Shown here: in pieces, positions 8,839-16,712 of the stretch | Position numbering within the stretch: the first letter of the stretch is position 1 | Layout of the letters: each line of letters begins with the position of its first letter | Origin: Rhodococcus sp. P-2 | Lineage (GTDB): Bacteria; Actinomycetota; Actinomycetes; Mycobacteriales; Mycobacteriaceae | Direction of reading: 5' to 3' | DNA length: 64,000 nt | Assembly (NCBI RefSeq): GCF_016598535.1 | Contig: NZ_CP066779.1 | Coordinates: forward strand, 4,338,053 to 4,402,052 | Made by a program: the position numbers and the translations under genes | Notes under the pieces: model-generated | What the model saw: only the letters and a program-made list of their open reading frames with translations | What the model was told of the DNA's origin: nothing | Database searches by the model: none

Positions 8839-10260
8839 GTGGTGAGCACGGTCGAAAAGTCGTTGTCGTCATCGGCCGTACGTCGCGCACTGCTTGTCGG
8901 CGTAGTCGTCTTCGTCTCGTGCCTGGTCGGAATTCTGAGCCGTCTGCCGGGCACGCTTGCTGTCTTCTGGCCGGCCAACGCGCTGCTACTCGGGATTCTC
9001 TTTCGCTCGCCGCGTTCCGCCACACTGCTCACCTGGATTTGCGTAGTAGTCGGTTATGTCGGAGCCGACCTGATCACCGGTGGGGCGTGGGAGTCCACGA
9101 TGTGGCTCAACGCCGCCAACATCGTCGGGGTTGCCAGCGGCTTCTACGCCTTTCGCTGGGTCGACGGTGAGGATCGTCGTCTGAACAGTATCGAGTCTGT
9201 CGGATATCTCGTGGCGACGACGGTCGTCGCCGCGTCGATGGCAGCACTCGTCGGCGGAATCGCGAACCGCGTGCTGTTCGGCGGGCAGTGGTGGGACGGC
9301 TGGTTGCTCTGGTTCTCGAGCGAGTTCGTCAACTACATGACCATCGTCCCGTTGGTGCTGACATTCCCTTCGCTTCGGCGAGCGGATCGGGACCCGAAAG
9401 CTGTTGCCGCACTTCTGCGTCGATCTGTGGTTCCGACAGCGCTGCTGGCCGTCTGCATCATCTTGGAGTGGGTGATCGGCGGTGCCGGAGCGATCGCGTT
9501 TGCCATGCCGGCCCTGGTGACTGCCGCCTTGCTCACCAATGTCTTCGTCACCTCGGTGCTCACAGCCGTATCAACTGCCTGGACGTTGGTACTGACGGCC
9601 GACGGTCATCTCGGATTGTCCAGCGAGGGCGTCTCGCCCGTCAGTGCGTCGGTCCAGATCGGATTGTCGCTGCTGGCGGTAGCGCCGATCGCGGTGGCCT
9701 GCGTAATCCTCGAGCGCCGCCGCGCGCTCGAGGCACTCACCCAGGCAGTCACCCACGACGATCTCACCGGTGCGCTGCGTCGGGACGAGTTCTTGCGGCG
9801 AGGCGGCAGCGTGACGGGTGCGACCGAACCGCGTCGGCACTCTGGACGTCCGGTCAGCGTCCTGATGATGGATCTGGATCACTTCAAGATGGTGAACGAC
9901 AACCTCGGTCATCGCGCCGGCGACACCGCGTTGGGGAGTTTTGCCGATCAGGTGCGGCGGAATCTCGACGACAAGCATCTGTTCGCCCGTTTGGGCGGCG
10001 AGGAGTTCGTCGTACTGATGGCCGGTGTCGATCTGGCGGGTGCGACCGAGACGGCCGAGATGATTCGACGTGCGCAGGCCGAGAGTTCGTCGGCAGTGTT
10101 GGGTGAACTCGGGCCCACCGTCAGTATCGGTGTCGCATGTTCACCTGCAGGCGGTGCGGATCTGACGCAACTGGTCGACTGCGCCGACGAAGCGTTGTAC
10201 CGGGCGAAGAAACTCGACCGGAATCGAACCGTGTCGCTCACGGTCGGAGAAGCGAAGTAA
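8839..10260 (+). CDS. MASE1-type membrane GGDEF protein (putative diguanylate cyclase)
   Basis: A 473-aa protein. About 290 N-terminal residues form eight or so hydrophobic segments with the FWPANALLLGILF signature of the MASE1 sensory domain. The C-terminus is a GGDEF domain beginning THDDLTGALRRDEF (about 308), with MMDLDHFKMVNDNLGHRAGD and the active loop ARLGGEEFVVLM. The loop is intact GGEEF, so it should make cyclic di-GMP from two GTP at the membrane. The RxxD inhibitory site expected five residues before GGEEF is absent (DDKH there), so product inhibition of the usual type is unlikely. GTG start at 8839, with only weak GGA/AGG upstream. Convergent with the permease gene across a strong hairpin. 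First gene of the accessory block between bioD and bioB. Confidence 0.85.
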   Translation: MVSTVEKSLSSSAVRRALLVGVVVFVSCLVGILSRLPGTLAVFWPANALLLGILFRSPRSATLLTWICVVVGYVGADLITGGAWESTMWLNAANIVGVASGFYAFRWVDGEDRRLNSIESVGYLVATTVVAASMAALVGGIANRVLFGGQWWDGWLLWFSSEFVNYMTIVPLVLTFPSLRRADRDPKAVAALLRRSVVPTALLAVCIILEWVIGGAGAIAFAMPALVTAALLTNVFVTSVLTAVSTAWTLVLTADGHLGLSSEGVSPVSASVQIGLSLLAVAPIAVACVILERRRALEALTQAVTHDDLTGALRRDEFLRRGGSVTGATEPRRHSGRPVSVLMMDLDHFKMVNDNLGHRAGDTALGSFADQVRRNLDDKHLFARLGGEEFVVLMAGVDLAGATETAEMIRRAQAESSSAVLGELGPTVSIGVACSPAGGADLTQLVDCADEALYRAKKLDRNRTVSLTVGEAK

Positions 10261-10315: not shown

Positions 10316-11698
10316 TCAGAACAGGTTGATCAGAGCCGGGACGCTGAACAGCGCGACGTAGTAACCCATGAACAGGACACCGCCGTGGATCTTGAACAGA
10401 CGCCCGAGCAAGCCGCCGACGAGGCCGACCGTCACGGTGATCAGAAGCCCGAGGATGCCGCCCTCCCAGATGCTGATGACCACGACCAGTCCCGTGAACA
10501 CCGCGATCACAGCTTCGTGACTGATGTGTTTGACCACCGCTGACGCAGCGCGGTACGCGTAGTTCATGGCAAACGGATATGCGATGACCGTCGCGGTGAC
10601 GACTGCGAGCAGGCCGTAGAGCAGGAACTCCCACTGGGTCAGGTACGTGGAGAGATTGTTGATCACTCCGGTTTCCTGATTGGTTTCGAAGACCGGCGGA
10701 GCGTTGAACAGAGGCGCCGCGGGACCTGCTGCCAGCGGGCTGAGCGGAAGGCCGAAGGCCACGAGAGGGATGAGGGTTTCCGCGATGTACGTGGATTCCG
10801 TCGTACCGTTCTTTGCCGAGACCATGGTGGTCAGCCGGTGGTAGCCGTTCTTGATCCGCGCACCCACCAGCTCACCCATCAGAACGGTCATGGCAACGGG
10901 GCTGAAGACGAACGTTGCGCTGGAGACCGTGGAGGCCGCCGCGGTGTAGCCGATCTGCTTACGATCGAGGACCTTCAGAGGATTGGGGAAGTATCCCTTC
11001 CACCCCTTGATGTCCGGGGCCAGTGCGACGGTCTTGGGTTCGCTGCGCTCCATGTCCTTGCGACTCGACGGCCCCAAGGTCAGCGCGAGGTCCGCGATCA
11101 GCGGCCCGACCGCGATGGCAAGGAAGTAGCTGATGTTGAGCGACACATCGTAATTCGACGTCAACGCGCGTGCGCCCAGGATCAAGATCACGAAGGGAAC
11201 GAGAGCGACCACTCCGGCCCAGCGGCCCGGCGAGGCGTAGGCGATGCCGACGGCGGCGACCAGGAACAGCCACGGTGCTATCGACTGAACGGTGTCGGCG
11301 AACGGAGCGAGGATGGTCGCGAACAGGACGGCAACCGGCACAGCGACGAACGCCGAGATCACTGCTCCCGAGATCGCCTTGCGGAGTGCGATGTGCGGGA
11401 TGCCGAGTGAGCGCATCATCTGCGCCTCCGGCAGGAGTGGAATCGCCATCGTGTCACCGGGAATGCCCAACAGCATCGTCGGCACCGCGTGAGTCATGTG
11501 TTTGGCGATCGCACCGGAGAGGAAGAACGTGAAGACTGCCGCCGGGGGAGCACCGAGCAGGATCACGAGCAGAGTCAGCGGTGCGATGGTGGCTGTCTCG
11601 TCCGTGCCGGAGATCAATCCGATGAACGTGAACGCGACCGCACCGATGATGCCGAAGAGGACGGCAATCAGAATTTCGTTGGTCAGAACCGAACTCAT
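10316..11698 (-). CDS. TctA-like integral membrane permease (putative mevalonate/organic acid importer)
   Basis: A 460-aa polytopic membrane protein with about 11-12 hydrophobic segments. The N-terminal repeat (FTFIGLISGTDETATIAPLT, then GIPGDTMAIPLLPEAQMMRS) resembles the large permease of tripartite tricarboxylate transporters (TctA/DUF112), though the match is loose. It overlaps the upstream small membrane protein by 4 bp (ATGA) and is the last gene of a same-strand cluster with HMG-CoA reductase and lyase. From that context it is a candidate importer of mevalonate or a related branched hydroxy acid; the substrate is inference only. No periplasmic TctC-type receptor gene is next to it. Confidence 0.6.
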   Translation of the reverse strand: MSSVLTNEILIAVLFGIIGAVAFTFIGLISGTDETATIAPLTLLVILLGAPPAAVFTFFLSGAIAKHMTHAVPTMLLGIPGDTMAIPLLPEAQMMRSLGIPHIALRKAISGAVISAFVAVPVAVLFATILAPFADTVQSIAPWLFLVAAVGIAYASPGRWAGVVALVPFVILILGARALTSNYDVSLNISYFLAIAVGPLIADLALTLGPSSRKDMERSEPKTVALAPDIKGWKGYFPNPLKVLDRKQIGYTAAASTVSSATFVFSPVAMTVLMGELVGARIKNGYHRLTTMVSAKNGTTESTYIAETLIPLVAFGLPLSPLAAGPAAPLFNAPPVFETNQETGVINNLSTYLTQWEFLLYGLLAVVTATVIAYPFAMNYAYRAASAVVKHISHEAVIAVFTGLVVVISIWEGGILGLLITVTVGLVGGLLGRLFKIHGGVLFMGYYVALFSVPALINLF

Positions 11699-12246
11699 GC
11701 GAGCCCACCGTCCTTCGGTGCTTTCGAGGCCGGTGCTTTCGAGGCCGGTGCTTTCGAGACCGGTGTGTTCGAGACCGGTGTGTTCGAGACCCGCGCGTGC
11801 TCGGCCTCGGCAGCGGCGAAGTGGTCGTACAGACCGAGTTCGCGAAGTTCCAGTTGGCTCTGTTCCGGAATGTCGGCGAGAGTCCCGAGACCCTGGCGTT
11901 GTTCACTCATCATCGTGATGACACCGTCGATCGACTCCGCGTCGGCGGCCGCCAAGGCGACTATCCGCTTCGGCTTGATGAAGATTCCGCAGACGACGCC
12001 GGCGAGCAGGCAGGCCGCGATGCCGACCAGCAGGCTGTACGCCTGGGCCAACGACGGCTCGCTGACGACCCGTTCGAACAGTGCTTGGGCTGCGAGAAGA
12101 GCCGAGGCGCCGACGACACTGCCGACTGCGACAGAGATCGCGAGGTGTCGACCGTTGACGGTGTCGCCCCAGACTTCGAGGTATGTCTGCTGCTCGGTCG
12201 GCTCGGTTGTGGTGGTCGGCGTCGTTGCCGACTGCGGTGGTGACAT
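11695..12246 (-). CDS. Small two-helix membrane protein with repetitive C-terminal tail
   Basis: 183 aa, no recognised family. A Thr-rich N-terminus leads to two hydrophobic segments (about 34-56 and 68-90), a basic loop, a cytoplasmic-looking region (QRQGLGTLADIPEQSQLELR) and then a tail of 5-residue repeats (VSNTP x2, then VSKAP/ASKAP x3). It overlaps the permease by 4 bp and is probably its accessory subunit, possibly in place of a TctB-type small subunit. ATG at 12246. It follows the HMG-CoA lyase gene by 78 bp. Confidence 0.7.
   Translation of the reverse strand: MSPPQSATTPTTTTEPTEQQTYLEVWGDTVNGRHLAISVAVGSVVGASALLAAQALFERVVSEPSLAQAYSLLVGIAACLLAGVVCGIFIKPKRIVALAAADAESIDGVITMMSEQRQGLGTLADIPEQSQLELRELGLYDHFAAAEAEHARVSNTPVSNTPVSKAPASKAPASKAPKDGGLA
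11716..11790. repeat. Five 15-bp tandem repeats in a membrane-protein gene
   Basis: Units starting at 11716, 11731, 11746, 11761 and 11776. The first two read CGGTGCTTTCGAGGC, the third CGGTGCTTTCGAGAC, and the last two CGGTGTGTTCGAGAC. They encode the 5-aa repeats at the C-terminus of the 183-aa protein and keep the frame, so copy number could vary without breaking the gene. Confidence 0.9.
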
Positions 12247-12324
12247 CAGTCTTCTCCAGTGTCATACAGGGCGAGGTCATACAGGGCGAGAGGCTTGGGA
12301 GGCGGGGGACTTGCTTGGCGAATG

Positions 12325-13293
12325 TCAGGTGCGTGCAGCGCGGAGGGCATTGACAACCCGGGACGGGCTCGAGTGTCCGATCTGTTCGGCCATCCAACTA
12401 CTTGTGTCGGTGAGCGAATCCAGGTCGATGCCGGTGTCGATCCCGAGGCCGTGGAGCATCCAAACCAGATCCTCGGTGGCGAGATTTCCGGTCGCGCCCT
12501 TGGCATACGGGCACCGTCCGAGACCACCTGCGGAACTGTCGAATTCGGATACTCCGGCGGTCAACGCCGCGTAGACGTTCGACAGTGCTTGCCCGTAGGT
12601 GTCGTGGAAGTGCATCGCGATCTGCGATGTGGGGATGCCACGTTCGCGGATCGCGCCGAGTAGAGCGAGCGCATGACCAGGGGTGCCGACGCCGATGGTG
12701 TCGCCGAGGGAGAGCGACGTGACGCCGCTGTCGATCAAGGCCTTGGCGATGTCGGCGACACGCTCGACGGACACGACGCCTTCCCACGGGTCTCCGAAGC
12801 ACATCGATATGTACCCACGGACGGGAAGTCCCAGGGCTCGAGCGGCGGTCGTGACCTCGGCGGCCGCGGCGATCGCGCCGTCTACCGTGGAATTGAGGTT
12901 GCGTTTCGCGAATTCCTCTGTGGCGCTGACGAATACTGCAACTTCACGCGCCCCGGCGGCGACGGCCCGCTCGAGACCTTTGCGGTTCGGGACGAGAACG
13001 ACCGTACGTACCGAGTTCGGCAGGTGGAGTCGACCCATCAATTCTTCCGCGTCCGCAAGTTGCGGGATCCATCGAGGTGAGACGAAACTCGTCAACTCGA
13101 CAGTGCGGGAACCGGCCGCGACCAGGCGTTCGATGAACTGGGCCTTCGTCTCGGTCGGGATCACCGCCGTTTCCGCTTGAAGTCCGTCTCGAGGCCCGAC
13201 TTCGTAGACCCGGACCGAGGTCGGTAGGCCCGGCGCCGACACTCGATGAGGCGCCGGTTTCCACACTGGTGATCCTGCAACTGTTTCCGTCAT
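12325..13293 (-). CDS. mvaB: Hydroxymethylglutaryl-CoA lyase
   Basis: A 322-aa HMGL-like TIM barrel that cleaves HMG-CoA to acetoacetate and acetyl-CoA. Seen: VRVYEVGPRDGLQAE with the catalytic Arg-Asp pair, FVSPRWIPQLADAEE, ISMCFGDPWEG, SLGDTIGVGTPG, the metal-binding HFHDTYGQALSN, and GGLGRCPYAKGATGNLATED with the catalytic loop Cys. The family fit is very good. The start is the ATG at 13293-13291 (MTETVAGSPV), 5 bp after the HMG-CoA reductase stop; a longer open frame extends back into that gene but is not credible. Direct coupling to a degradative reductase mirrors mvaAB of Pseudomonas mevalonii; leucine breakdown is the alternative role, but no leucine-pathway genes are adjacent. Confidence 0.93.
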   Translation of the reverse strand: MTETVAGSPVWKPAPHRVSAPGLPTSVRVYEVGPRDGLQAETAVIPTETKAQFIERLVAAGSRTVELTSFVSPRWIPQLADAEELMGRLHLPNSVRTVVLVPNRKGLERAVAAGAREVAVFVSATEEFAKRNLNSTVDGAIAAAAEVTTAARALGLPVRGYISMCFGDPWEGVVSVERVADIAKALIDSGVTSLSLGDTIGVGTPGHALALLGAIRERGIPTSQIAMHFHDTYGQALSNVYAALTAGVSEFDSSAGGLGRCPYAKGATGNLATEDLVWMLHGLGIDTGIDLDSLTDTSSWMAEQIGHSSPSRVVNALRAART

Positions 13294-13298
13294 TGTCG

Positions 13299-14603
13299 TC
13301 AGTTTCCGCCGCGGATCTCGGCGAGAACCTTCTCGGCATGCTCGACGCGAATGCTCTTGTCCGCGATCAGGCGTGCGACCACGGCGTCGATCTCGCTCTT
13401 CTGCGCTCCGGCGGTGGCAGCGATGTTGCGGGCGTGCAGTCCCATGTGTCCGCGCTGGACACCCTCCCCGGCGAGAACGCGGACAGCAGCCAGGTTCTGT
13501 GCAAGACCGACTGCAAGAATGATGCCGGCGAGTTCCTCGGCACTCTCGACGCCGAGCATCTTGATCGCGGCCTGCGCTACGGGGTGCACCTTGGTGGCCC
13601 CGCCGACGAGGCCGACCGGCATGGGTAGCTCGAGGGTGCCGACGATGTTTCCGTCGGCGTTCTTCTCGAAATGCGAGAGCGAGGAGTAGATTCCGTCGGC
13701 GTTGACTGCGTGAGAGTGGCACCCGGCTTCGACTGCACGCGTGTCGTTTCCGGTCGCCAGCACCACGGCGCTGATGCCGTTCATGATGCCCTTGTTGTGT
13801 GTCGCGGCGCGGTAGGGATCCAGCTCGGCCAAACGTGCGGCATGGATCAGGTTGTCCACTGCTTCTGCGCCGCCGATCAATTCGGCGTCGAACACGGCGC
13901 GAACACGCGTGAGCCGCAGATCTGCCTTGTTGGTGAGAATACGCAGGACGACGTGCCCGCCGCCGATCTCGGACACTCGATCCGCGATTGCTTCCGCCAT
14001 CGTGTTGACTGCGTTGGCGCCCATCGCATCTCGTACGTCGACATGAAGGTGGAGGACGACGTAGGTGGCCTGGTCCGAGGACACGACGCGAACCGAAATA
14101 TCCTTCACGCCACCGCCGACGCTGACCAGCTTCGGGTCCTGCTCGTTGGCGAGTGCCATGATTTCTTCACGCGCCTCGAGGAGCCGGATCCGGGCCGCCT
14201 GCGGATCCACGACGTCGACGAGTTGAATCTGGGCTTGCATGATCGGCTGGGTACTGGAGGCGTGAAAGCCGCCCAGTCCGCGTGCGATGCGAGCGGCGTT
14301 GCTCGCAGCTGCGACGACCGACGGCTCCTCGGTGGCAAGAGGGATCAGGTAGTCCTCGCCGTTGATCGTGAAGTTTGTGGCCACGCCGACCGGAATGCCG
14401 ATGACGCCGAGGACGTTCTCGACCATGCGATCGGCCTGGTCGATGGTGAGGCCGTCGGCGGCGTCGTAGACCGCGATGTCTGCTTCGGTCAGGTCGGTCT
14501 GGCGGACGATCTCGGCGCGCCGGGCGGCGACGTCGTAGGACCGGAAATCGGCGATACGGCTGTTGACAGACCGGTTGTTCTTGGACCGATTGTTCATAGA
14601 CAC
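13299..14603 (-). CDS. mvaA: Class II (degradative-type) hydroxymethylglutaryl-CoA reductase
   Basis: 434 aa. Class II HMG-CoA reductases of this type interconvert mevalonate and HMG-CoA; in mevalonate-using bacteria they run oxidatively with NAD+. Seen: the Glu of MVENVLGVIGIPVGVA, VDVRDAMGANAVNTMAE, the catalytic Lys in ATHNKGIMNGI, the Asp of VVLATGNDTRAVEAG, and the C-terminal His region GHMGLHARNIA. The GTG at 14603 is chosen because AGGAGGA (14618-14612) sits 8 nt upstream; an ATG lies two codons further in. It heads a same-strand run mvaA-mvaB-membrane protein-permease and follows a PucR-type regulator by 105 bp. No other mevalonate-pathway (biosynthetic) gene is in the window, which favours catabolism. 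Confidence 0.92.
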   Translation of the reverse strand: MSMNNRSKNNRSVNSRIADFRSYDVAARRAEIVRQTDLTEADIAVYDAADGLTIDQADRMVENVLGVIGIPVGVATNFTINGEDYLIPLATEEPSVVAAASNAARIARGLGGFHASSTQPIMQAQIQLVDVVDPQAARIRLLEAREEIMALANEQDPKLVSVGGGVKDISVRVVSSDQATYVVLHLHVDVRDAMGANAVNTMAEAIADRVSEIGGGHVVLRILTNKADLRLTRVRAVFDAELIGGAEAVDNLIHAARLAELDPYRAATHNKGIMNGISAVVLATGNDTRAVEAGCHSHAVNADGIYSSLSHFEKNADGNIVGTLELPMPVGLVGGATKVHPVAQAAIKMLGVESAEELAGIILAVGLAQNLAAVRVLAGEGVQRGHMGLHARNIAATAGAQKSEIDAVVARLIADKSIRVEHAEKVLAEIRGGN

Positions 14604-14708
14604 GGGGGTTGTCCTCCTGAAGTGGTTCTGTGCTCCGCTTCACAGTAGGGAGGTTGATGCCTGCCAAGCCACGTGCTCACAGCACATCGATCAGTCGAAT
14701 TTGTGGTG

Positions 14709-16712
14709 TCAAGCACCATTACCGCTGTCGGTGTTGTCGCTTACGCCTTCTTCGGTTCCCACTTCCCGAAGTTCGTCGAGCCTCGTCGCCATGGATACCC
14801 GGAAGAAGTTCTCGTCTTCACGCCACGAGTGACCGAGGAGTGTACGGATGCGGTCGAGACGCTGAACGACGGTGTTCGGGTGATAGTTGAGTGCGCGGGC
14901 AGCCTTGGTCGGGCTCCCGTCGTTGCGGACCAGGGCCCGAAGGGTCGCAGTGAGATCGGTGTCCTTGTCATGGTCGTAGGCGAGTACCGGGCCGATGACT
15001 TCGTCGATGAACTGATGGAGTGATTCCGGATTCTCGCCGAACAGAACGCTGTACGGCAGATACGACGCAGTCGTGACCGCGCCGTCGGTCTTGCCCAACG
15101 CGGTGATCAGGCGGGCCGTGCGCAGCGCAGAGGTGAAGCGCGCCGGGAGTTCTTCGGGGCGCTCCGCCGTCGCCGGCGCAATGACTACTGCGTGGGGTCC
15201 TACCGAACCGGTGATCTGGCGGTGAATGACGGTCGCCGCTGCTGCCGGGTTTCCCGAGCGCGAGACCACCGCGATCAGTCCGGCGTGCTGCGCCGCCAAT
15301 GCCGCTACCGGCAGATTCTGTCCGATTGCGCGGAGCGCGGCCGTCCGGAGTTCCGGAGCGACCGAGACCACGAGGACAGTGTCGAGTTCGCCGAGGGAGA
15401 TGCCGAGGTTGCGGGTCCGACGTTCGAGATCGCGCCTGCGCTCGGGCGCAGTGCTCAGCAAGTCGGCGACCAGTTCGTCACGTGCGCGCCGGTCCGCTGC
15501 TGCTGCCGCCGAGTGTTGCAACACGAGGATGGCAGTGACCTGAGCTGCCCGTTCCACGGTCCGGAGTTCGACGGGGCCGATCGGCGCGTCCGAACGATTC
15601 AGCAAGATGGCCCCGAGGAACGATTCTCCGGCGGTGACAGCGCTGACGAGTTGGATGGCGGTCTCACTGTCGTCGGTGACAAACGTGCATCGGCCGCTGC
15701 GGCGACTCTGGTCGATGGCCTCGGACACGGCGCGAGGTAGCGACAACGGCACCGTCGTGATCTGCTCGCCCGAGGATTTCACGAGAGGGCGTAACTCACT
15801 GTCGACCACGACGGTGCTGCGCTCGAGTGAGCTGCTGAGGGTTCGTGCAACCTGGGCGTATCCGCCGCCGCGGAGAACGGCATGGATGAGATCCTGGTGG
15901 ACGATGTTCGACTTGTCCCGCGCGGACACGTGCTCACGCAGCTCGTCGAGTGCTCGCCCGGTCTCGGCGGCGGATTCCTCGGCGCGGTCGAGGGCCCGTG
16001 CGGTTTGCAGGACCACCGAGGCGTGATCCGCCAGCGCCGAGAGCAGGGCGATCTGATCAGCAGTGAAGCGGCGTTCCCGGCGGTCGGCGGCAAACAAGAC
16101 TCCGAGGATCTGGCCGTCCGAGAGCATCGGCACGCCCAGAATCGCCACCAGACCCTCGGCGACGATCGCGGCATCGACTACTTCGTCATGGCGCGACTGC
16201 GTGTAGTCGCTGTAGTTCTGAACCCATTGGGCTGCTCGAGATTCGGCAATCGCGCTGACCAGTCCCGCGCCGGCAGGAACCTGCAGATGCTGGAGTTCCG
16301 GCGAGACCGCGCCGGCCGTCTTTCGAACATTCAGGTCACGAGTGATCACGTCGAACTCGGACAGGTACGTGACGTCGGTACCCATGATGTCGTGCGCGCG
16401 GTTCACCAGCCTCTGCAGCAGAGTGTCCACGTCGCGAACTTGCGCAAGCTCACGCGCACTCGAATAGAGGACCGCCAATTCGTTTTCGCGACGGCGCAGT
16501 CGGCGAAATTCCGACCGACTGGCCCGGATGCGGGCCGCTGTCTCCGCGATCTCCGTTGCGCCAACGCCGAATTCGGCCAGTACCTGTTCAACGTGTTCGT
16601 CACCGACGGCGTCGGATGTCACGTCGAACAGCGCGGCAATCACGTTGGGTGCTGAGTCGGAGTCTGAATCAGGGGCGGTCACACCGAACAAACTACAGAC
16701 CGGTGGATCCAC
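14709..16712 (-). CDS. GAF/PucR-type transcriptional regulator
   Basis: 667 aa. N-terminal region with a coiled stretch (RASRSEFRRLRRRENELAVL), a GAF domain (about 80-240, from ELAQVRDVDTLLQRL to ALADHASVVLQTAR), a central PucR-type region, and a C-terminal helix-turn-helix of the PucR/CdaR family (TLRALVRNDGSPTKAARALN then YHPNTVVQRLDRIRTLLG, about 600-640). It stands directly upstream of the HMG-CoA reductase gene on the same strand and is the obvious candidate activator of that cluster, with mevalonate or HMG-CoA as possible GAF ligand (inference). GTG start at 16712 overlaps the upstream S74 gene by 20 bp; a GTG at 16682 just after that gene is an equally good start. Confidence 0.85.
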   Translation of the reverse strand: MDPPVCSLFGVTAPDSDSDSAPNVIAALFDVTSDAVGDEHVEQVLAEFGVGATEIAETAARIRASRSEFRRLRRRENELAVLYSSARELAQVRDVDTLLQRLVNRAHDIMGTDVTYLSEFDVITRDLNVRKTAGAVSPELQHLQVPAGAGLVSAIAESRAAQWVQNYSDYTQSRHDEVVDAAIVAEGLVAILGVPMLSDGQILGVLFAADRRERRFTADQIALLSALADHASVVLQTARALDRAEESAAETGRALDELREHVSARDKSNIVHQDLIHAVLRGGGYAQVARTLSSSLERSTVVVDSELRPLVKSSGEQITTVPLSLPRAVSEAIDQSRRSGRCTFVTDDSETAIQLVSAVTAGESFLGAILLNRSDAPIGPVELRTVERAAQVTAILVLQHSAAAAADRRARDELVADLLSTAPERRRDLERRTRNLGISLGELDTVLVVSVAPELRTAALRAIGQNLPVAALAAQHAGLIAVVSRSGNPAAAATVIHRQITGSVGPHAVVIAPATAERPEELPARFTSALRTARLITALGKTDGAVTTASYLPYSVLFGENPESLHQFIDEVIGPVLAYDHDKDTDLTATLRALVRNDGSPTKAARALNYHPNTVVQRLDRIRTLLGHSWREDENFFRVSMATRLDELREVGTEEGVSDNTDSGNGA

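Follow-up and report, generated by a model that had tools for sequence, protein, structure and literature searches.

What is a 3-hydroxy-3-methylglutaryl-coenzyme A (HMG-CoA) reductase doing in a Rhodococcus gene cluster that also encodes an HMG-CoA lyase and a permease? The cluster lies in a stretch of 64,000 nucleotides from Rhodococcus sp. P-2 (assembly GCF_016598535.1, contig NZ_CP066779.1, positions 4,338,053 to 4,402,052, forward strand), and this whole stretch is called the window here. Five genes, all on the minus strand, encode in turn a GAF-PucR regulator, the HMG-CoA reductase (HMGR), the HMG-CoA lyase (HMGL), a small membrane protein and a TctA-like permease (Table 1). The genome, which is close to that of R. 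erythropolis, is one contig of 6.34 Mb and holds a single reductase gene. We consider it probable, with good confidence, that the cluster is a catabolic operon for (R)-mevalonate that covers import, oxidation to HMG-CoA, cleavage and control by PucR. The base of this reading is observed: gene content and order, protein families, conserved catalytic residues, lack of a detectable HMG-CoA synthase, and co-occurrence across genomes.

In the proposed scheme, the permease and its two-helix partner would import mevalonate by secondary transport with no dedicated binding protein. The reductase would then run oxidatively (mevalonate + CoA + 2 NAD+ -> HMG-CoA + 2 NADH), and the lyase would cleave HMG-CoA to acetoacetate and acetyl-CoA. 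PucR would activate the operon, probably from an inverted repeat ahead of the reductase gene. We infer from sequence the substrate, the direction of transport, the direction of the reductase in vivo, activation by PucR and, for the window's strain, independence from a binding protein.

Are the two enzymes of the degradative kind? The reductase scores 421 bits against TIGR00532, the "degradative" equivalog (cut-off 260), and 59.5 bits against the NADPH model TIGR00533, far under its cut-off of 441.8. It is 96% identical to its counterpart in R. erythropolis NBRC 15567 and aligns over nearly its full length with the Pseudomonas mevalonii enzyme structure 1qax (419 bits). In the P. mevalonii numbering we take Glu83, Lys267, Asp283 and His381 to be catalytic and Asp146 to fix the use of NAD. 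Equivalents of the four catalytic residues were present in the window's enzyme and in 119, 121, 121 and 120, respectively, of the 122 rows of our reductase alignment; the rows that deviate are L083, at all four positions, L027, with two gaps, and L090, with one. At the Asp146 position, 118 of the 122 rows, the window's included, have Asp; the others have Ser (L146), a gap (L083) or His (L074 and L075). In the Ruegeria enzyme, replacement of an Asp, presumably the equivalent one, adds NADPH use, according to the excerpt of PMC12292504 available to us. The lyase scores 372 bits against NCBIfam NF004283 (cut-off 246) and matches the mitochondrial HMG-CoA lyase 2cw6 nearly full length (E 1.5e-82). 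A degradative-type HMGR with HMGL 5 bp downstream bears out the first-pass annotation, which had recognized here the logic of mvaAB. The genome encodes a second above-cut-off lyase elsewhere, beside a CoA-transferase gene. Perhaps the operon lyase serves only leucine breakdown? We set this aside, since the second lyase may fill that role instead.

The annotation had also named a complete biosynthetic mevalonate pathway elsewhere in the genome, one that uses this reductase, among the findings that would overturn its proposal. HMG-CoA synthase (PF08540) had no match in any of the 28 genomes of the genus sample, our own included, while 4 of 14 controls were positive. Dxr, an enzyme of the methylerythritol phosphate (MEP) pathway, is encoded in the genome. 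With no synthase match and with Dxr present, we judged a biosynthetic role for the reductase unlikely.

If the permease serves the reductase, the two should travel together. Within the genus, HMGR was found in 12 of 28 genomes, and a divergent TctA subfamily (52-70 bits against PF01970) in 11 of 28, each of which also has HMGR; three sub-cut-off matches (G004, G006 and G025; 19-21 bits) were left out of this count. Canonical TctA proteins (at least 473 bits) occur in 11 genus genomes, and four of these also carry HMGR. The twelfth HMGR genome, G015 (L013, L015, L027), carries a reductase in two pieces, a shortened PucR and a broken lyase, and has no TctA anywhere in the genome; its locus is consistent with decay of the unit. 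Among 397 genomes of the order, 25 had HMGR, 19 the permease and 17 both, always within 3 kb judging from the listed positions (Fisher p 6e-22). Among 394 genomes of the class the figures were 16, 9 and 8 (Fisher p 8e-12). These p-values are indicative only, because the two samples overlap and the genomes are related. The order exceptions with a permease and no HMGR are G316, which shows only pieces of PucR and of the permease, and G249, which is also the class exception. Eight class genomes have HMGR but lack the permease: seven of them have CaiB, and the remaining one is cut by a contig end.

Gene order is conserved as well. The arrangement PucR-HMGR-HMGL-small protein is kept in genus relatives down to 68% HMGR identity and hence is not due to chance. 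In each of the 11 non-decayed genus loci that we mapped in addition to the window (L016-L026), the PucR gene lies ahead of HMGR and shares its strand.

Is the permease pair a conventional tripartite transporter? The permease scores 56 bits against PF01970 (cut-off 28.9), and canonical TctA proteins of the genus score 473-525 bits. A profile comparison by hhalign with four canonical Rhodococcus TctA proteins gave a probability of 33% (E 4.5e-4, 397 columns). By sequence, the permease is thus a remote relative of TctA that scores above the family cut-off. In an alignment of 21 permeases, identity to the window's sequence was 42-74%, with the exception of R. erythropolis, whose row reached 100%. 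The small membrane protein matched no Pfam or NCBIfam family. Scanning 47 open reading frames (ORFs) of this protein revealed two main hydrophobic peaks, with a split first peak in five and a weak third in L020 and L021. An AlphaFold2 model has two long helices (residues 32-60 and 64-89; mean pLDDT 77, pTM 0.41). Glu24, Trp26 and Asp28, together with a PKR motif after the second helix, are invariant in all 21 rows of the small-protein alignment. TctA is a 12-helix protein and TctB a 4-helix protein, as described in the excerpt of PMC5812351 that we consulted. Peaks and model give the partner two helices, not the four of TctB. Compared by hhalign with four Rhodococcus TctB proteins, which themselves display four or five hydrophobic peaks, the small protein showed no detectable similarity at profile level (probability 0.7%).

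We mapped 48 permease loci, the window and 47 others, on stretches of differing length, and searched them with a TctC profile built from six Rhodococcus ORFs. A TctC-like ORF occurred in the fetched stretch of five (L110, L111, L116, L121 and L152, all beta-proteobacterial), adjacent to the permease in none. Could the only TctC of our own genome be a hidden partner? We set this candidate aside, although it may yet be a partner in the window's own strain: it is unlinked; TctC proteins of similar score occur in G002 and G017, both of which are without TctA; and in the draft genomes G021 and G023, which carry the permease, TctC (PF03401) had no match.

The permease pair is not confined to Rhodococcus. 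A tblastn search of 72,556 plasmid records with the permease returned six matches, four of which we opened (Burkholderia cenocepacia, Roseomonas mucosa, Rhizobium etli and Lichenicola cladoniae), leaving out Burkholderia arboris and Roseomonas gilardii. All four had HMGR directly upstream of the permease with a small membrane gene between. Three of the four also had a lyase and, on the other side, a PLP (pyridoxal phosphate)-dependent aminotransferase family gene, probably encoding a MocR-type regulator. The B. cenocepacia reductase (L169) is nearly identical to PDB 6p7k. Loci fetched by HMGR carry the pair in Pseudomonas, Acinetobacter, Salinicola, Variovorax, Achromobacter, Bordetella, Cupriavidus, Rhizobium and a Clostridium; because they were selected on HMGR, they show breadth, not independence. 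Many other proteobacterial and all archaeal loci of this fetch are without the pair, and 49 of the 122 reductase rows were labelled "other". The proposal of a self-contained import-and-degrade system is thus supported as regards import and catabolism, given the linkage to HMGR and the lack of a synthase match. The system is not peculiar to Rhodococcus: HMGR is accompanied by this permease pair in further Actinobacteria as well as in Proteobacteria and a Clostridium. Among the matches listed from the open-licence literature, a scope outside which older Pseudomonas and actinomycete work falls, none concerned mevalonate catabolism in Rhodococcus or a TctA-type mevalonate transporter.

The exceptional genome G249 deserves closer inspection. 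It has no HMGR match. In its locus (L164:7766-14459) HMGL follows the permease pair, and the genes ahead of the pair encode two oxidoreductases (an aldehyde dehydrogenase and a zinc alcohol dehydrogenase) as well as a type III CoA-transferase; a LysR regulator gene is oriented divergently. Among NCBIfam models, the CoA-transferase scores best against succinate-glutarate CoA-transferase, though below cut-off. HMGR by itself combines the oxidation of a primary alcohol to an acid with CoA loading, so mevalonate would, on the simplest reading, be the substrate here too. It is plausible, from the families encoded in this one genome, that the dehydrogenases and CoA-transferase replace the HMGR step, though the substrate of this gene set could also be a different C6 alcohol or acid.

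A quick tree of 118 reductases (the 122 rows less L019, L027, L083 and the short L090) placed the window's enzyme in a clade of 50 rows (SH-aLRT 99). Thirty of these are linked to this permease, 13 to HyuA-HyuB-CaiB-enoyl-CoA hydratase and seven to CaiB with or without the hydratase; there were no other labels. Given the starred branches of the tree, the Hyu label must have changed five times or more. Hence, judging by these linked modules, the clade seems catabolic, and the permease pair seems to be one of several interchangeable modules that serve it.

The Hyu loci, in which a hydantoinase-like HyuA-HyuB, a type III CoA-transferase and an enoyl-CoA hydratase replace the permease beside HMGR and HMGL, are L023, L055, L057, L058, L060, L070, L071, L077, L078, L079, L081, L087 and L100. 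L023 (G010, contig C1, 469 kb) is the second HMGR copy of a Rhodococcus genome in which the permease type occurs too; by eye, a transposase-like gene follows its lyase. The nearest structures to the HyuA of L055 are those of N-methylhydantoinase and 5-oxoprolinase; the CaiB of this locus is closest to YfdE, with HMG CoA-transferase ranking lower. Matches of the hydratase include SidH, though not as the closest. One idea is that the Hyu module might be the reverse of fungal SidI/SidH and allow use of anhydromevalonate.

How might PucR act on the operon? The regulator matches PF13556 (HTH_30, 59 bits) and GAF_2 (58 bits), that is, a PucR C-terminal helix-turn-helix with a sensory domain. We searched 42 stretches, out of a separate set of 48, for an operator, leaving out L027, L076, L078, L079, L085 and L086. 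The inverted repeat CATGTG-N7-CACATG was exact between PucR and HMGR in six (L020, L021, L065, L066, L080 and L096). Seven further loci carry it with a single mismatch, and in two of these both position and spacing differ. In the window and four close relatives the repeat sits where it does in L020, with two mismatches (p 0.08-0.14, not significant alone). The repeat was not found in most loci of other families among the 42 tested. We regard the repeat as a candidate operator.

We then weighed what speaks against mevalonate import and catabolism. Mevalonate is a monocarboxylate, and characterised TctA systems mostly carry other carboxylates and use a substrate-binding protein, as far as the consulted part of PMC5812351 goes. 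The only TctC of the window's genome (G000:C1:5435601-5436320, L158) is unlinked to its only TctA, so a distant TctC partner may exist in this strain. The window's operator is degenerate and by itself not significant (shuffle p 0.14). Several loci with HMGR and permease have no lyase within the fetched stretch (e.g. L056, L059, L062, L110 and L121). Reductase homologues at 49-57% identity occur in archaea, where they are probably biosynthetic; family alone therefore cannot prove the direction of the reaction. Lastly, the CoA-transferase of G249 could mean that the permease carries 3-hydroxy-3-methylglutarate.

Perhaps, then, the permease imports another acid that feeds into HMG-CoA, such as 3-hydroxy-3-methylglutarate or 3-methylglutaconate, with mevalonate as one substrate or none? 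The carboxylates carried by characterised TctA systems would fit, as would the combination of permease, lyase and CoA-transferase without HMGR in G249 and the HMGR-HMGL-CaiB cluster with the permease in Pseudomonas nabeulensis. However, the window's operon has no CoA-transferase or ligase, and imported 3-hydroxy-3-methylglutarate could therefore not be activated by it. G249 also has alcohol and aldehyde dehydrogenases that this acid would not need, and in many loci, the five just named among them, the permease pair comes immediately after HMGR and the stretch holds no lyase. We consider such a substrate unlikely. Export of mevalonate or another product, as overflow or detoxification, is very unlikely: the direction of a secondary transporter is unreadable from its sequence, but with a lyase present and no HMG-CoA synthase detected, there is no evident internal source of mevalonate. 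We give still less credence to a reductase that works reductively, for isoprenoid or other biosynthesis. The archaeal homologues lend this some substance, as do two genomes of the same order (G142 and G156) with HMGR fused to a mevalonate-kinase-like domain. Against it stand the absence of synthase matches throughout the genus sample, the presence of Dxr, the lyase 5 bp downstream and the NAD-type Asp of the reductase. The fused reductases (L075 in G142, L074 in G156) appear to be biosynthetic relatives; by eye, L074 neighbours decarboxylase-like and isopentenyl diphosphate isomerase-like genes. Import and catabolism of mevalonate fit best with a degradative HMGR and HMGL, no HMG-CoA synthase, Dxr, and a permease that co-occurs with and is linked to HMGR.

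Table 1. Features of the predicted mevalonate operon (positions within the window)
Feature	Positions	Strand	Basis or remark
GAF-PucR (HTH_30) transcriptional regulator	14709..16712	-	First possible start 16712; later GTG at 16682 also possible
Class II HMG-CoA reductase, degradative type, mvaA-like	13299..14603	-	TIGR00532; PDB 1qax, 419 bits; catalytic positions and Asp146 equivalent
HMG-CoA lyase, mvaB-like (HMG-CoA -> acetoacetate + acetyl-CoA)	12325..13293	-	NF004283; 2cw6
Small membrane protein in TctB position: two helices, N-terminal EVWGDTV, soluble C terminus	11695..12246	-	Alignment; AlphaFold2 model
TctA-like permease, predicted mevalonate importer	10316..11698	-	PF01970; 21-sequence alignment; HMGR linkage
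AGGAGG, probable ribosome-binding site of reductase gene	14613..14618	-	Sequence
Candidate operator GATGTG-N7-CACGTG, degenerate form of the CATGTG-N7-CACATG inverted repeat	14670..14688	-	Same place as in some relatives
Possible -10 element TACTGT	14642..14647	-	By eye in Rhodococcus sequences; putative

The reductase gene starts with GTG at 14603, nine bases downstream of AGGAGG. HMGR and HMGL are separated by 5 bp and HMGL and the small membrane gene by 78 bp, and the two membrane genes overlap by 4 bp. Pfam scores of the enzymes were 336 bits for HMG-CoA_red and 156 bits for HMGL-like. ORF positions and Pfam and NCBIfam matches thus agree with the earlier account of the ORFs, their families and shared strand, the 5 bp gap and the 4 bp overlap. 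The 3' end of the small membrane gene contains an in-frame tandem array (window 11716-11791; 15 bp unit, 5.1 copies), and a second 15 bp duplication lies between this gene and the lyase gene (12261-12290). A GGDEF protein gene on the plus strand (window 8839-10260) converges on the permease gene, with a hairpin-like sequence, noted by eye, between them.

The transporter is the newer part of this locus; the enzymes follow the known mvaAB logic. A bolder reading, to which we give even odds as a whole, has two parts. The permease and the two-helix EVWGD protein would constitute a separate family of two-component transporters that are specific for mevalonate and need no binding protein, and hence a native importer of bacteria recognised at gene level; and at least one relative (G249) would degrade mevalonate without HMGR through alcohol and aldehyde dehydrogenases and a CoA-transferase. 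A 2025 report of an evolved yeast importer (PMC12405511) states, in the part accessible to us, that several bacteria have mevalonate import systems and that the only previously known importer was a mammalian MCT1 mutant. The conserved permease pair, present beside degradative HMGR in several phyla, offers a candidate that can be tested directly; it could serve isoprenoid engineering and help to find out which bacteria consume mevalonate. If the proposal is correct, the permease would further be of the TctA type yet independent of any binding protein; TctA without TctC is rare, and such working is treated as unproven in bacteria, in the consulted excerpt of PMC5812351.

How does the locus compare with known systems? 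On plasmid pTM1 of Tistrella mobilis (L168), a degradative HMGR likewise lies beside an organic acid importer, but there it is a tripartite ATP-independent periplasmic (TRAP) system, dctP with two permease genes. A comparison with solved structures matched the binding protein of that system to TTHA0766, which binds lactate. In the B. cenocepacia locus, the same two-helix protein and TctA-like permease follow the reductase; the fetched 15 kb has no lyase or PucR match. The title of a 2014 paper reportedly terms this HMGR oxidative and cooperative. TctCBA systems share with the Rhodococcus locus a permease above the Pfam TctA cut-off and a small membrane gene just upstream that overlaps the permease gene. 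Unlike them, the Rhodococcus locus has no linked TctC, a partner with two helices instead of four, and a permease far from canonical TctA. The locus also resembles mvaAB of P. mevalonii, where a degradative class II HMGR is followed by HMGL in an operon and where the reductase supplies our strong structural match. By sequence, the enzymatic core in Rhodococcus is of the mvaAB kind; the locus seems to add to it a gene for PucR as well as the linked pair of TctA-like permease and two-helix protein.

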